Shown here: piece by piece, positions 18,408-23,744 of the stretch
Numbering within the stretch: position 1 is the first letter of the stretch
How the letters are laid out: the number at the start of each line of letters is the position of its first letter
Assembly: GCF_017654605.1 (NCBI RefSeq)
Contig: NZ_CP072113.1
Coordinates: forward strand, 2,666,001 to 2,730,000
Direction of reading: 5' to 3'
DNA: 64,000 nt
Source of the DNA: Yimella sp. cx-51
GTDB taxonomy: Bacteria; Actinomycetota; Actinomycetes; Actinomycetales; Dermatophilaceae
Program-made: the position numbers and the translations under genes
Notes under the pieces: model-generated
Told to the model about the DNA's origin: nothing
Seen by the model: only the letters and a program-made list of their open reading frames with translations
The model's database searches: none

Positions 18408-18504
18408 GATCGTTCAGCCTGCCAGTGCCGGGGTGCCGCCGCAGTAGAGGCCGCCCCGATCAAGCGTCCGGCGCCCGGTCTCAACTGACGTACCCTTGGT
18501 GCCC

Positions 18505-19206
18505 GTGATGCATGCGCTTGCCCCTGTCGTGACCCTTGGCCCGAGCTGGATGGACCCGCAGTGGCTCCTCGACCAGTACGGCGGCGCCTTCTTCTGGATC
18601 TCCCTGGCGATCATCTTCATCGAGTGCGGGCTGTTCTTCCCGATTCTTCCCGGCGACTCGCTGCTGTTCGCCATCGGGATGTTCTCGGTCAACGCCAAGG
18701 CCAACTTCGACATCCCCCTGTACGTCTCGATCCCGGCACTCATGGCCGCGGCCTTTGCCGGCAACGTGGTGGGTTACGAGATAGGACGGGCTATCGGCAC
18801 GCCGCTCTACGAGCGGGACGGCCGCATCATCAAGAAGAAATACTTCGACCAGACGAACGCCTTCTTCGACAAGCACGGCAACAAGGCTTTGGTCATCGGT
18901 CGATTCGTGCCGATCGTGCGCACCTTCATCACCGTGGTCGCTGGCGTCAGCAAGATGGACCGCAAGCGCTTCTTCACCTGGTCCGCGGTCGGTGCCGTCT
19001 TCTGGGTGGGGCTGATCGTCAGCCTCGGTGTGATGCTGGGCAATGTCGCGTTCGTGCGCGACAACCTCGAGACCGCCATCCTGCTGATCGTCGCGCTGTC
19101 GGTGCTGCCGATGGTCATCGAGTACATCCGTCACAAGCGCCAGGCGGATGCGATCGTCGCCGAGACCGCCGAGGCGGCCAAGGACATCGTCACCGACGAA
19201 CGCTGA
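18505..19206 (+). CDS. DedA-family membrane protein
   Basis: About 233 residues; several start codons lie within 12 bp (GTG 18505, ATG 18508). DedA signatures are clear: ECGLFFPILPGDSLLF near residue 40, and FVPIVRTFITVVAGVSKM near 135, with the conserved Arg of the reentrant helix. Four to five TM segments. DedA/VTT proteins move lipids such as undecaprenyl phosphate across the membrane; this family assignment does not fix the substrate here. TACCCT lies 8 bp before GTG 18505, so the transcript may be leaderless. Confidence 0.92.
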   Translation: MMHALAPVVTLGPSWMDPQWLLDQYGGAFFWISLAIIFIECGLFFPILPGDSLLFAIGMFSVNAKANFDIPLYVSIPALMAAAFAGNVVGYEIGRAIGTPLYERDGRIIKKKYFDQTNAFFDKHGNKALVIGRFVPIVRTFITVVAGVSKMDRKRFFTWSAVGAVFWVGLIVSLGVMLGNVAFVRDNLETAILLIVALSVLPMVIEYIRHKRQADAIVAETAEAAKDIVTDER

Positions 19207-19300: not shown

Positions 19301-20989
19301 TCAGCGCCGCGGCAACGGGTAGTGCCGCGCCTGCGGCTGCTGGACCGGCTGCTGCTGTGCAGGCTGGGGCTGCTGCACCGGACGGCGGGCGGCTGCCCGC
19401 TTGGCGAATGCCTGGGCGTAGCCGGCGCCGGCCGACAGGAGCAGGAGTCCGACGACGATGAACGCTCCGGCCCGGACAATTCCGCTGAGGGCGGCGAGGT
19501 CGTGCAGGAAGAGCTTGGCCAGGGCCGACGCGGCGACGACGAGTCCGGTCACGACCAGACCGGTGTTCTTGCCGTCACCTCGCAGGCTCAGGGCCAGCAG
19601 AGCGGAGGCCAGCAGCATCCAGCAGACCGTGACTGAGAAGTGGCCGAGGCCCTGGCCGCTGTCGCCGAGAGTGACAACGCAGAGGCTGAGCAGGGTGATG
19701 GTGGAGCTCACCATCAGAGCAAGCGCCCCGAACACCGCCACACCTTCCCGGTCGGCGTTGTAACGACGGATCCCGATGACCACAGCGATCAGGATGTCCG
19801 CGGTGAGCAGCAGACCGCCGACGAAGTCGGCCATCGTCCAGGCATCGGCAACGACGGTGAGGCTCGCCCTGGTGACCAGATCGAAGGCACCGAGGCCGAT
19901 GAAGGCCAGGGACAAGCCCGCGGTGAAGTGGTTCTTCACCTGGTAGACCGAGGCTGCGAGCACGGTGCCGATGCCCAGCAGGATCGCGGACAGGAAGTCG
20001 CCGGTGGTGACGGTCATCGCTGCTGCGAGCAGCGCAGCACCGGTCACGAGCGTGGCGGCGGCAGTCGTGGCGAGTCCGACCGGGCGAGCCAGGACGAGCG
20101 AGCCGAAGGTCATGGCCGCGACCGCAGCACCCGCGACGGCCGCGACCGGGCCGGTGAGAGCGGTGATCGCGATGATCATCGGCACGCTCGCCAGGCCGTA
20201 CATGACTGCAGTGACTTCTTCGTGACGGCTTCGCGAGGCGGCCAGCGCCGAGGTCAGCGCGATGGTGGCGACCAGGTAGCTGGCGATCTGCTCACTGGTG
20301 CCGGTGCGCTCTGCGGCGATGGCGTAGGTCGTGGCGAAAGCCACCGGAAGCGAACGGGCGGCGGCGATCGCCGGCCACGACTTGGTGAACTCGGGGATGC
20401 AGCCGGCTGCCTGCAGCAGCACCAGGAAAGCGATGAGCGGCACAGTGACACCTTCGGTGAGCACGGGTGCCAGACCTGCGACCGATGCAGTCATCAGCAC
20501 GGCGAGTGCCTGGGAGTTCCACCTCATCGCCAGGGCGATCGCGCCGGCCGCAACGACAGCGGCGAGGACAAGACCTGCCACTCCCGGTATCCACTCGTAG
20601 TAGTTCGTGGCAGCGACGATGCAGAGGAACAGTCCGGCTGTGCCGGTCGAAGCCAGCGCGACTGCGCCGATCTGTCCGCCGAGTCGAAGATGCAGACGGG
20701 TGGACGCCGCAAGCAGCATTGCGGACAGCAGCGCTCCGCCGCCCACCCGGATCTCCGGACGGAGCAGTCCGGCACGGGCGGCGATGACGAGCAACATGAC
20801 GACACCGATGAGGGTGACGAAGACGCCGGCTGCGGCGAAGACCTTGGCAACCATGCCGTCCCGCTCCCACCACGGTTGCTTGGTGGCCGGCGGTGCGTAT
20901 TGGTAGGCCGGACGGGGTCCGGCCGCGGTCTGGAATTGAGCGCCGTTCGGGTACTGGTTCTGGCTCTGGGGCCCTTGTGTCGTGTTCAT
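19301..20989 (-). CDS. DUF2339 polytopic membrane protein
   Basis: 562 residues. A Gln/Pro/Tyr-rich cytoplasmic N-terminus of about 45 residues is followed by roughly 15 hydrophobic segments up to residue 535, then a Gln/Pro-rich tail (QQPQPAQQQPVQQPQA). This is the DUF2339 pattern. Function unknown; related proteins are linked to the cell envelope. The gene stands alone with a 16-bp MacR-type palindrome 35 bp before its start and the macR gene behind that, so it is a likely MacR target. Confidence 0.8.
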   Translation of the reverse strand: MNTTQGPQSQNQYPNGAQFQTAAGPRPAYQYAPPATKQPWWERDGMVAKVFAAAGVFVTLIGVVMLLVIAARAGLLRPEIRVGGGALLSAMLLAASTRLHLRLGGQIGAVALASTGTAGLFLCIVAATNYYEWIPGVAGLVLAAVVAAGAIALAMRWNSQALAVLMTASVAGLAPVLTEGVTVPLIAFLVLLQAAGCIPEFTKSWPAIAAARSLPVAFATTYAIAAERTGTSEQIASYLVATIALTSALAASRSRHEEVTAVMYGLASVPMIIAITALTGPVAAVAGAAVAAMTFGSLVLARPVGLATTAAATLVTGAALLAAAMTVTTGDFLSAILLGIGTVLAASVYQVKNHFTAGLSLAFIGLGAFDLVTRASLTVVADAWTMADFVGGLLLTADILIAVVIGIRRYNADREGVAVFGALALMVSSTITLLSLCVVTLGDSGQGLGHFSVTVCWMLLASALLALSLRGDGKNTGLVVTGLVVAASALAKLFLHDLAALSGIVRAGAFIVVGLLLLSAGAGYAQAFAKRAAARRPVQQPQPAQQQPVQQPQARHYPLPRR

Positions 20990-21000
20990 GCTTCAAGCCT

Positions 21001-21019
21001 GGTTCGGCGGCGCCGAACC
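21001..21019. terminator. Short GC hairpin
   Basis: GGTTCGGC and GCCGAACC pair across 3 bases. It lies downstream of nothing on the plus strand and just upstream of the DUF2339 start on the minus strand, so it may be an element of that gene's leader. Confidence 0.45.
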
Positions 21020-21023
21020 GGCA

Positions 21024-21039
21024 TGAGTAGCACTACTCA
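21024..21039. promoter_or_regulatory. Candidate MacR operator (16-bp perfect palindrome)
   Basis: TGAGTAGCACTACTCA: arms TGAGTAG and CTACTCA around CA. As I recall, the Streptomyces MacR consensus is TGAGTAC-NN-GTACTCA, differing only at the innermost arm base. It lies 35 bp before the DUF2339 start and next to the macR gene. Confidence 0.65.
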
Positions 21040-21109
21040 ACCGGCGTAGGTACTTCCTGAACGCGAATCCACTGAGGCGTAGTTGGCCGCCGCCCTGTGG
21101 TTGGGCCGT

Positions 21110-21754
21110 TCAGTCGAGGCCGTGCTCCATCGCGTACCGGGCAAGTTCGACGCGATTGGAGAGGTGGAGCTTGCGCAGCGACGACTGCACGTGGTTCTCG
21201 ACGGTGCGATGCGAGACACCGAGCCGTGTGCCGATCTGCTTGGCGCTCAAGCCTTTTGCGACAAACCGAAGCACCTCGGTCTCACGTTCGGTCAGGCTGG
21301 GAAGGTCTGCGCCGCCTTTGGCGTCCGGCACGGTCGACATGCGCCGATACTCCCCCAGGACGAGTCCGGCCAGGCCCGGTGTGAAGACCGCCTGGCCGTC
21401 GGCGGTGGCGCGGACGGCGTCCAGGAGTTCGGCGGCGCTGGCCGACTTCACCAGGTAACCGCTGGCGCCGGCTTTGACCGCTTCCAGCACGTCTTCTCGT
21501 TCGGAGGACGCCGACAACACCAGGATCTTGGCTTCGCCGGAGACCTCGAGCACCGCCGCGGTGGCCGCGGCGCCGTTGCCGTCGGGAAGGTGCATGTCCA
21601 TGAGCACCACCTGCGGCTGGGTGGCAGCGGCACGTGCCGCCGCTTCGGCGACGGTGCCGGCCGTGGCGACCACTTCGAAGCCGGCGCCGGTGAGGTCTCG
21701 GCTGACACCGTCGCGCCACATCGGGTGGTCGTCGACCACCATCACCGTCGTCAT
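21110..21754 (-). CDS. macR: MacR-like NarL/LuxR response regulator
   Basis: 214 residues. Receiver domain 1-120 with acidic pocket DD at 8-9, phospho-acceptor Asp53 (VVLMDMHLPDG) and Lys near 103 (YLVKSAS). LuxR-type HTH at about 148-210 (LTERETEVLRFVAKGLSAKQIGTRLGVSHRTVENHVQSSLRKLHL). The ATG at 21754 overlaps the kinase stop as ATGA, and GGGAGGAACACG precedes it. Probably binds the palindrome at 21024. Confidence 0.92.
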   Translation of the reverse strand: MTTVMVVDDHPMWRDGVSRDLTGAGFEVVATAGTVAEAAARAAATQPQVVLMDMHLPDGNGAAATAAVLEVSGEAKILVLSASSEREDVLEAVKAGASGYLVKSASAAELLDAVRATADGQAVFTPGLAGLVLGEYRRMSTVPDAKGGADLPSLTERETEVLRFVAKGLSAKQIGTRLGVSHRTVENHVQSSLRKLHLSNRVELARYAMEHGLD

Positions 21755-22896
21755 CGTGTTCCTCCCACCGGCACGGTCAGTTCCCATTCGGTGCCTTCAC
21801 CCGGAGCGCTGTAGACCTGCGCCGAGCCACCGATGTCGGCCATCCTGCCTCGAATCGACTTGCTCACGCCCATCCGGCCTTCGGCGGCGGCTTCGTCGAG
21901 CCGCTCGAGTGCGAACCCGGCGCCGTCGTCCCGTACCGTCACCACGACCTCAGACCCAAGATCTTCGACCAGGACGAAAGACTTCGCGGCGGGTCCGGCG
22001 TGCTTGGCGGTGTTGTCGATCGCGGCCTGGATGGCGGCCACGAGTTCATCGAGTTGTGCGGCAGGAAGCACGAGCGAGTCGCCTGGCCCGGAAATGGTCA
22101 CCGGCTTCGGCAACTGCTTCTCCAACCGGGTGATCAGGTCGGTCGCATCGGATCTGGTGGTCGTGCGGGCCTGGCGTGACAGCAGCGTCCGCAGCGAAGC
22201 CTCCTGCTCAGCTGCCATTGTCGCCAGTTCGGTTGTGGGGCCGCCGATCTCGGTGCCACGGCGGCTGATGAAGGCAAGCACTTGCAAAGTGGTGTCGTGC
22301 ACCTCGCGGCTGAGCCGTTCGCGCTCGTGCGTGCTGGCTTCGAGCCGAATGGCCTCGTCGATCTGTGCTCGGGCCCGCCGCACGATCTGCGCACCCATGC
22401 CGACCACCAGGCCGACGGTGAGCAGGATCGGCAGGGTGGCATCGAAGCTGATGTTGTCGAGCTGACCACAAATGGTGAGCGCCGAGAGGCCGACGAGCGC
22501 GCCCGCACCCATGCCCCACCACGGACCGAGCAGGATCGCCACGGAGACAACGGCATTCGTTGCCCAGAAGGTGGTGGGCACGGTCTGGTGGCGCTCGAAG
22601 TACGACGCCGGTCCCACCAGGAGCGTGCTGGCCATGAGCAGAAGGGTCACGACGACATCTGCATAGACGATCTTGCGGCGCATCCGGTAACCGAAGGCCA
22701 GCAAGGTGCCCGCCACGCCCGACCAGACGAGCATCAGTGCCAGCACAGCCCAGCTGAGCAGTTTCCTGTCGTACTGCGACACCACCGTCCACTGCACAGC
22801 CGCGGCGTAGGCAAGCGATGCCAGCCGGAACACCTGAGCCGCTCGCCAGAGCGGAAGTTGGCCGGAGTTGTCCCGCCCGAGGGTGGCTGTGCTCAT
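21751..22896 (-). CDS. macS: MacS-type sensor histidine kinase
   Basis: 381 residues. About five TM helices in residues 20-170, without a large extracellular domain, as in the DUF5931 region of the MacS family. HisKA_3 dimerisation with phosphorylated His200 (REVHDTTLQVLAF), then an ATPase domain with N-box-like AIDNTAKHAG and G-boxes VRDDGAGFAL and GRMGVSKSIRGRMADIGG. It overlaps macR by 4 bp and lies 21 bp after lemA, so the three form an operon. Signal unknown. Confidence 0.92.
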   Translation of the reverse strand: MSTATLGRDNSGQLPLWRAAQVFRLASLAYAAAVQWTVVSQYDRKLLSWAVLALMLVWSGVAGTLLAFGYRMRRKIVYADVVVTLLLMASTLLVGPASYFERHQTVPTTFWATNAVVSVAILLGPWWGMGAGALVGLSALTICGQLDNISFDATLPILLTVGLVVGMGAQIVRRARAQIDEAIRLEASTHERERLSREVHDTTLQVLAFISRRGTEIGGPTTELATMAAEQEASLRTLLSRQARTTTRSDATDLITRLEKQLPKPVTISGPGDSLVLPAAQLDELVAAIQAAIDNTAKHAGPAAKSFVLVEDLGSEVVVTVRDDGAGFALERLDEAAAEGRMGVSKSIRGRMADIGGSAQVYSAPGEGTEWELTVPVGGTR

Positions 22897-22917
22897 GGCG
22901 TCCAGCTGCGCTGGTTT

Positions 22918-23688
22918 TTACTGCTGGTTCGGGTAACCCTGCGGGTAGCCCTCCGGCTGCTGGGCTTGCTGACCCTGGTGGCTCTGCTGGCCGTGTGGGT
23001 ACTGCTGACCTGGGAGCGGACTGGGCGCCTGGCCCTGCTGCTCGATCTGCGGGTAGCCCGCCGACTGCGACTGGCCCTGGGCCGGAATGTTGTAACCGCC
23101 GGGGCCGCCCGCGGTACCGCCGGGTCCGGTGCCGAAGTTGACATTCGGCACGGCGCGCTCGTTGCCCTGCGCCTCGAAGTACTCCGCGCGCGCAACGCCC
23201 GCCGGGCCGGCCATGAACTTTGTGGGGATCGACTCGATCGAAGTGTTGAGCTCGCGCACGATCGCGTTGTAGTAGCGGCGGCCGGAAGCGATGCGGTCTT
23301 CGGTCGAGGAGAGTTCCTGCTGGAGACCAAGGAAGTTGGCGTTCGACTTCAGGTCGGGGTAGGCCTCGGCAACAGCCATCAGGCGGCCGAGGGCCTGGGT
23401 CAGCTGACCCTCGTTGGCAGCAGCGGCGGACGGGTTGTCTCCTCCGTTGATCGCTGCGCTGCGTGCCCGCAGCACCTCGTCGAGGGTGGCGCGCTCGTGC
23501 TGGGCGTAACCCTTCACGGTTTCGATGAGGTTGGGGATGAGGTCGTGCCGGCGCTTGAGTTCGACGTCGATCTGGTGCCACGCCTCCTGCACCTGGTTGC
23601 GCTTCTTCACCAGCCCGTTGTACGACGCGATCGCCCAGACGATCAGCAGGACGACAATGATGGCGAGGGCGATCAGGACGTAGGTCAT
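22918..23688 (-). CDS. lemA: LemA family membrane protein
   Basis: 256 residues from ATG at 23688 with GGAAGAG upstream. N-terminal TM helix (VLIALAIIVVLLIVWAIASYN), then the LemA helical domain with the hallmarks LVKKRNQVQEAWHQIDVELKRRHDLIPNL (abridged in places), LMAVAEAYPDLKSN and YNAIVRELNT. The last 75 residues are a Gly/Gln/Pro-rich tail, longer than usual. Function not settled. It is cotranscribed with the MacSR two-component system, which suggests a role in envelope sensing. Confidence 0.9.
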   Translation of the reverse strand: MTYVLIALAIIVVLLIVWAIASYNGLVKKRNQVQEAWHQIDVELKRRHDLIPNLIETVKGYAQHERATLDEVLRARSAAINGGDNPSAAAANEGQLTQALGRLMAVAEAYPDLKSNANFLGLQQELSSTEDRIASGRRYYNAIVRELNTSIESIPTKFMAGPAGVARAEYFEAQGNERAVPNVNFGTGPGGTAGGPGGYNIPAQGQSQSAGYPQIEQQGQAPSPLPGQQYPHGQQSHQGQQAQQPEGYPQGYPNQQ

Positions 23689-23744
23689 CGAAACTCTTCC
23701 TTCGGGCACGGACGGCTCGTCCCAGCCTACGGGCCCGGCGCGGT

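Follow-up and report, generated by a model that had tools for sequence, protein, structure and literature searches.

In the genome of Yimella sp. cx-51 (assembly GCF_017654605.1, contig NZ_CP072113.1) a gene for a MacR-like response regulator is followed by a gene for a DUF2339 membrane protein, and a palindrome lies in the gap between them. Does this palindrome connect the two genes, and in which direction would the regulator act? We analyzed the stretch of 64,000 nucleotides that contains the locus (positions 2,666,001 to 2,730,000 of the forward strand), called the window below, together with related genomes; all coordinates are those of the window. The initial annotation had read the palindrome as a MacR-type operator that links an operon of lemA, macS and macR to the DUF2339 gene. 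This central idea holds in the comparison of genomes and is stronger than it was stated: most probably the palindrome is the operator of the neighboring MacR, which would activate leaderless transcription of the DUF2339 gene and serve here as a switch with one output.

All four genes are located on the minus strand. The run lemA-macS-macR starts with lemA (22918 to 23688; PF04011, 188.8 bits), for which we use the ATG at 23688, the mechanical open reading frame beginning with a GTG at 23709. After a gap of 21 bp follows the sensor histidine kinase gene macS (21751 to 22896), whose product reaches 427.5 bits with the MacS equivalog model NF047322 (cut-off 300 bits) across positions 4 to 367 of 367. 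The macR-like gene (21110 to 21754) encodes a PF00072 receiver and a PF00196 GerE domain, both scoring above the cut-off, and probably starts with the ATG at 21754, which overlaps the macS stop codon as ATGA. A gap of 120 bp, which holds the palindrome, precedes the predicted target (19301 to 20989), which encodes a membrane protein of 562 aa of the DUF2339 or Arc3A family (PF10101, 83.2 bits, cut-off 33.6).

The palindrome TGAGTAGCACTACTCA (21024 to 21039, no strand assigned), identified by its sequence and its conservation in relatives, is an inverted repeat of the form 7-2-7 with the perfect arms TGAGTAG and CTACTCA. It had been described as a perfect 16-bp palindrome; the inverted repeat is real, but the central CA is non-palindromic and only 14 of the 16 positions are symmetric. 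The site lies 34 bp upstream of the DUF2339 start codon (ATG, 20989) and 70 bp past the macR stop codon. The MacR consensus of Streptomyces is TGAGTAC-NN-GTACTCA; the window site agrees with it at 12 of 14 positions, and the two changes are symmetric (C to G and G to C). A scan of the window with up to two mismatches found TGAGTAGCACTACTCA alone, compared with an average of 0.30 matches in shuffled sequences. No second site at this threshold is present in the window, and autoregulation of lemA-macS-macR was rejected. The complete genome of 3.21 Mb contains one exact copy of TGAGTA-N4-TACTCA, none with one mismatch and 11 with two, and a reversed-pattern control gave 22 places at up to two mismatches. 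Across the family, 19 of 149 genomes contain the exact pattern, with 20 sites in all, and the reversed control matches in a single genome.

To follow the site through the family we used the 110 of 149 genomes in which MacS is present (E<=1e-60); from the 109 others than our own, 100 macRS loci were examined and nine were left out. PF10101 was counted in 65 of 149 genomes, with the DUF2339 genes of G084 and G011 found by tblastn only, and some gene assignments in the macRS loci are partial tblastn matches (for example MacR in L107). Three loci (L349 to L351) duplicate genomes of the tally and were not added to it again. All counts in the family refer to related genomes, which are not independent. 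A DUF2339 gene lies within 20 of the 100 loci, and an operator with at least 11 of 12 matching positions precedes it in 15 of these; with the window this makes 16 of 21 linked loci. The initial annotation had named the absence of the palindrome from all relatives with the same gene order as a finding that would speak against it, and the pattern was present in most of them. In two loci (L063 and L078) more than 1 kb of other sequence separates macR from the DUF2339 gene, and the operator stays beside the latter. No match of at least 10 of 12 was found in the 80 macRS loci without DUF2339, which comprise 698,000 bp.

The same picture emerged for DUF2339 genes of the family that are not linked to macRS. 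An operator of at least 10 of 12 is found at the promoter of 21 of 24 and 17 of 22 such genes, together 38 of 46. The chance expectation is 0.0036 per gene (composition model, 900-bp window); the relatedness of the genomes makes a joint probability meaningless, and the predicted sites are nevertheless in plain excess over chance. The operator thus goes with the DUF2339 gene and not with the locus, and the predicted link of the palindrome to DUF2339 is strongly supported by comparison. As a separate observation, in eight loci of genus g17 (L299, L300, L306, L307, L311, L316, L321 and L330) the operator is directly followed by another inverted copy, GGAGTCGGGGTACTC, which overlaps it.

The arrangement of the promoters indicates how the site may work. 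We aligned 63 DUF2339 promoters on the operator without gaps, and the logo was calculated from 60 of them, omitting L062, L065 and L075. The order is rigid: in 59 of 63 promoters the operator is followed by 22 bp, a hexamer nAnnnT, 6 to 7 bp and the ATG, and the first ATG accordingly lies 34 to 36 nt after the operator. The exceptions are L319 (30 nt, with another ATG at 36) and the three promoters of genus g62, with distances of 57 to 58 nt in L062 and L065 and a true start at 57 in L075. In these three the strong operator is shifted upstream by 23 bp and its usual place is taken by a degenerate copy, which suggests two MacR sites in fixed phase. Outside the operator the conserved columns are an A at 23 nt and a T at 27 nt after the site (about 1.1 bits each, 60 promoters). 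In the window the hexamer is CAGGCT (20996 to 21001, minus strand), which begins 22 nt past the operator and 6 bp ahead of the ATG, and from its conserved A and T columns we take it as a -10-like element. The operator would then span -50 to -35 with its center at -42.5, and transcription would start at or just before the ATG. This ATG is likely to be the true start since the N-terminal residues M..RDDVxxLExEFADAM are conserved among the unlinked orthologues. A center at -42.5 is where class II activators bind, and the promoter reads as MacR-activated, class II and leaderless.

Many promoters that belong to clade A of the MacR tree (see below) show, by eye, a weaker half-site 23 bp upstream of the operator. 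In the window this is GTACCTA (21047 to 21053), the right half of a weak and degenerate, possible secondary MacR site (21047 to 21062, minus strand), which we assign tentatively. Class II activation by NarL/FixJ-type regulators such as FixJ and DevR/DosR shares the 7-2-7 site near -42.5 and the possible second site 23 bp upstream that are predicted in the window. A search of 396 genomes of the order with the exact full-layout pattern returned only G000 and G001, the pattern being too strict and the family being sampled with few genomes.

The same layout occurs in Streptomyces-type genomes. A scan of public genomes with TGAGTA-N4-TACTCA-N{21,25}-AGGCT gave at least 118 stretches, of which 80 (53 high-GC and 27 low-GC in guanine and cytosine content) were analyzed, many of them from Streptomyces and Kitasatospora; L231 from Flexivirga caeni carries a DUF2339 promoter with the same layout. 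Among the matches listed, the spacer to AGGCT measures 23 or 24 in 48 of 53 high-GC loci, the start codon is usually within a few bases of AGGCT, and C-NN-G is the commonest operator center (29 of 53). By our reading small membrane proteins or lipoproteins are often encoded downstream of these high-GC sites. MacS scored above the cut-off in all 16 named genomes of the scan set that were checked. With MacRS of Streptomyces coelicolor (SCO2120/SCO2121) the window system has in common the MacS equivalog assignment, the 7-2-7 operator TGAGTA..TACTCA and the identical promoter spacing, and the recognition helices are near-identical (SHRTVENHVQ in the window, SHRTVQNHVQ in Streptomyces). The Streptomyces genomes of our phylum sample differ in that MacS is present and DUF2339 absent, and the layout precedes, as we read it, other small membrane proteins or lipoproteins. 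The reading of the palindrome as a MacR-type operator of the DUF2339 promoter is supported by its recurrence at linked and unlinked genes and by the layout that it shares with sites in Streptomyces.

The MacR phylogeny, built from 70 proteins, divides into two clades (support 100/99). Clade A contains all 27 DUF2339-linked entries plus L067, clade B the remaining members of the family together with Streptomyces and Actinoplanes; the label of the DUF2339 link changes twice on this tree, compared with 21.8 times in shuffles. The window MacR belongs to clade A, which is sister to and does not lie inside the Streptomyces-containing clade, and is 61 to 63% identical to most Streptomyces MacR proteins. 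DUF2339 genes keep the predicted operator even in genomes of the family with a clade-B MacR. In the phylum sample (296 genomes) the members of the class outside the family that possess DUF2339 are five f22 genomes; all five have MacS, and macR adjoins DUF2339 in each, whereas the f22 genomes G563, G619 and G672 have neither DUF2339 nor MacS. Clear operators are present in G598 and G575, and G756 shows a half-site in the right frame. Clade A covers two families, and together with the adjacency of macR and DUF2339 this argues for a gene link older than either family.

The lemA gene is confined to clade A, with eight of 21 loci compared with 0 of the 79 others among the macRS loci examined; in five of the eight loci the gene immediately precedes macS, and in the other three it is 1.7 kb away. 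LemA is by this distribution a companion of clade A, an optional neighbor and not a fixed part. Of the module proposed in the initial annotation the MacR-type operator of the DUF2339 promoter is retained, and the membership of LemA only in part; envelope stress as the signal is so far a guess, as is the role of LemA.

How many genes does MacR control? A promoter profile built from 40 DUF2339 promoters recognized in the own genome the window site only (E 6.4e-5; next 0.10), and a layout search with three mismatches added one poor site there, compared with two in the control. In a set of 30 genomes the profile found sites with E<0.01 in 14 of 20 MacS-positive and none of 10 MacS-negative genomes (lowest E 0.087 in the latter); training sites make up most of the 14, and G095 and G045 are outside the training set. 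DUF2339 is hence the only predicted MacR target in the window genome, a further difference to Streptomyces besides the sister clade, and MacRS looks like a one-output switch here. In some genomes MacR would have other targets. G045 (L053/L431), whose MacR is of clade B and in which DUF2339 gave no match, shows the same promoter arrangement upstream of a gene resembling CDP-alcohol phosphatidyltransferases (Pfam 21.3 bits, slightly short of the cut-off of 22), and the clade-A genome G115 (L433, about 1501 to 1550) has a second site of 10/12, located 34 nt before a predicted membrane protein of 111 aa, a possible second target. The other targets predicted with the profile are weak; of four loci inspected, L432 and L434 are without a plausible start at the expected distance. 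A MacR-type site was also seen near a DUF4126 gene in L041 (G022), again in a genome with a clade-B MacR and no DUF2339 match.

In the mechanism that we propose the membrane kinase MacS would sense a signal and MacR would become phosphorylated. The phosphorylated dimer would bind the palindrome at about -42.5 and recruit RNA polymerase to the weak nAnnnT -10 element, and a leaderless mRNA for the DUF2339 membrane protein would be switched on. For the function of this protein the best guide is Pseudomonas aeruginosa. The accessible part of a report on this organism defines Arc3A as PF10101 (DUF2339) and describes that Arc3A (PA5114), under the control of Gac/Rsm, shields the cell from a phospholipase toxin and keeps lysophospholipids from building up (PMC8926400); a role against lipase effectors is supported in the available text of a second study (PMC12663445). 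By analogy the window protein would probably protect or remodel the membrane, for example against lysophospholipids. Both proteins belong to PF10101 and are polytopic membrane proteins, but a simple hydropathy count gives about 15 transmembrane segments in the 562 aa of the window protein, compared with 35 predicted segments stated for Arc3A in the part of the report at hand (PMC8926400). The AlphaFold model is all-helical and of good confidence (predicted local distance difference test score 85). Foldseek returned no match at E<=0.001 among solved structures, and a sequence-based search of solved structures was unproductive, its best match being a designed repeat with E 0.072. VIA-align placed designed helical repeats and toroids first (best Z 16.4, 227 residues); helical models often give such matches, and the result is no more than a hint at a membrane-embedded helical repeat. 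Neither fold search thus yields a relative to be trusted, which does not prove that the fold is new. The N-termini of the clade-A proteins of the family are mostly rich in proline and glutamine (window 20900 to 20989), while the unlinked orthologues start with the charged LExEFADAM segment.

It is a real possibility that the regulatory link is right and that the DUF2339 protein is a factor of morphogenesis or wall assembly unrelated to lysophospholipid defence. Reviews, as far as their accessible text goes, place the MacR targets of Streptomyces among morphogenesis membrane proteins and lipoproteins, and the smaller number of segments would be compatible with a different function. On the other hand, Pseudomonas regained phospholipase resistance with four DUF2339 proteins of other bacteria, all highly diverged, which suggests a role common to the family; the accessible part of that report names no actinobacterial member among them (PMC8926400).

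The direction of control could also be the reverse, with MacR bound to the site as a repressor and loss of the signal switching the gene on. A review describes MacR as controlling differentiation negatively in Streptomyces (PMC9739842), and the operator reaches into the -35 region, a position that repressors can also occupy. The aligned promoters, however, show no -35-like element and a weak -10, the fixed phase at -42.5 is typical of class II activation, and positive MacR control of membrane-protein genes is described in the accessible part of another study (PMC9739823). We therefore regard repression as unlikely and favor activation by MacR.

Several observations weigh against the proposed mechanism. 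Five linked loci show half-sites only (the right one in L061, L077, L104 and L064, the left one in L130), as judged by eye and post hoc. Of the eight unlinked genes without an operator of at least 10 of 12, four lie in genomes with MacS, namely three of genus g13 (G075, G103 and G123) and G116, whose site is in place with 9/12 only; the other four, three in genus g22 and G113, are discussed below. No operator was found at the DUF2339 genes of the f22 genomes G797 and G807. The low-GC loci listed from the public scan are more spread, yet they peak at a spacer of 23 as well (11 of 27). Finally, G102 keeps the operator before DUF2339, and no MacS was found in its assembly, which is 89% complete.

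The last case would also suit another regulator with a similar palindrome in place of MacR. The core TGAGTA alone is in fact not specific to MacR: TGAGTAACACTACTCA was observed in L058 and L059 (1501 to 1516; G102 and G122) between genes whose translations resemble Lrp/AsnC and 4-hydroxyphenylpyruvate dioxygenase, and it is probably the operator of that Lrp/AsnC-like regulator. But the DUF2339 site largely follows MacS. It is present in 53 of 62 DUF2339 genes of MacS-positive genomes and in one of five of MacS-negative ones (Fisher p 0.004, relatedness ignored), being missing or decayed in four of the five genomes without MacS. Among these are the three misses in genus g22 and G113, all without detectable MacS. 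In G113 the promoter is otherwise intact, but its site has decayed to CGAGTAGCCAGATTCA (9/12); the congeners G052 and G088 possess MacS together with sites of 11/12. This provides a natural contrast for the co-decay of regulator and site. Since the site moreover adjoins macR in two families, the use of the palindrome by a different regulator appears improbable to us. Two other readings, a terminator or other RNA feature downstream of macR and a match by chance, have together a negligible probability, although the site lies between macR and DUF2339 next to an inverted repeat rich in GC (21001 to 21019): no T-run follows it, it stays with DUF2339 in L063, L078 and at the unlinked genes, and the macRS loci that lack DUF2339 contain no such site in 698 kb; an element of the macR end was likewise rejected.

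The inverted repeat mentioned, GGTTCGGCGGCGCCGAACC, sits between operator and ATG and finds a partial likeness, by eye, in the same genus only. A gene for a VTT/DedA-type membrane protein (18496 to 19206) is convergent to the DUF2339 gene and occurs also in 13 of the 100 macRS loci examined, mostly in loci with DUF2339.

We found no publication that links MacR to DUF2339 in the literature searched, which omits the primary MacR paper and most others that require a subscription. Gac/Rsm occurs in gamma-proteobacteria only, whereas the arc genes are far more widespread, and other signalling systems controlling them were left to be identified (PMC8926400); Arc3B homologues are reported in Gram-negative phyla only in the accessible part of the same source. 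The Pseudomonas protein is under Gac/Rsm and the window protein, as a candidate, under MacRS. Tentatively, and with considerable doubt about the claim as a whole, clade-A MacRS may be an actinobacterial counterpart of Gac/Rsm for Arc3A, a dedicated two-component switch which would sense membrane damage, for example by phospholipase or lysophospholipid attack, and respond with essentially one output, through one class II leaderless promoter that predates the split of the families. The compact rule TGAGTA-N4-TACTCA, 22 to 23 bp, nAnnnT, 6 to 7 bp and start may help to read MacR regulons across Actinomycetes. For a part of this class, MacRS would be a candidate regulator of an Arc3A-family protein outside the bacteria that possess Gac/Rsm.

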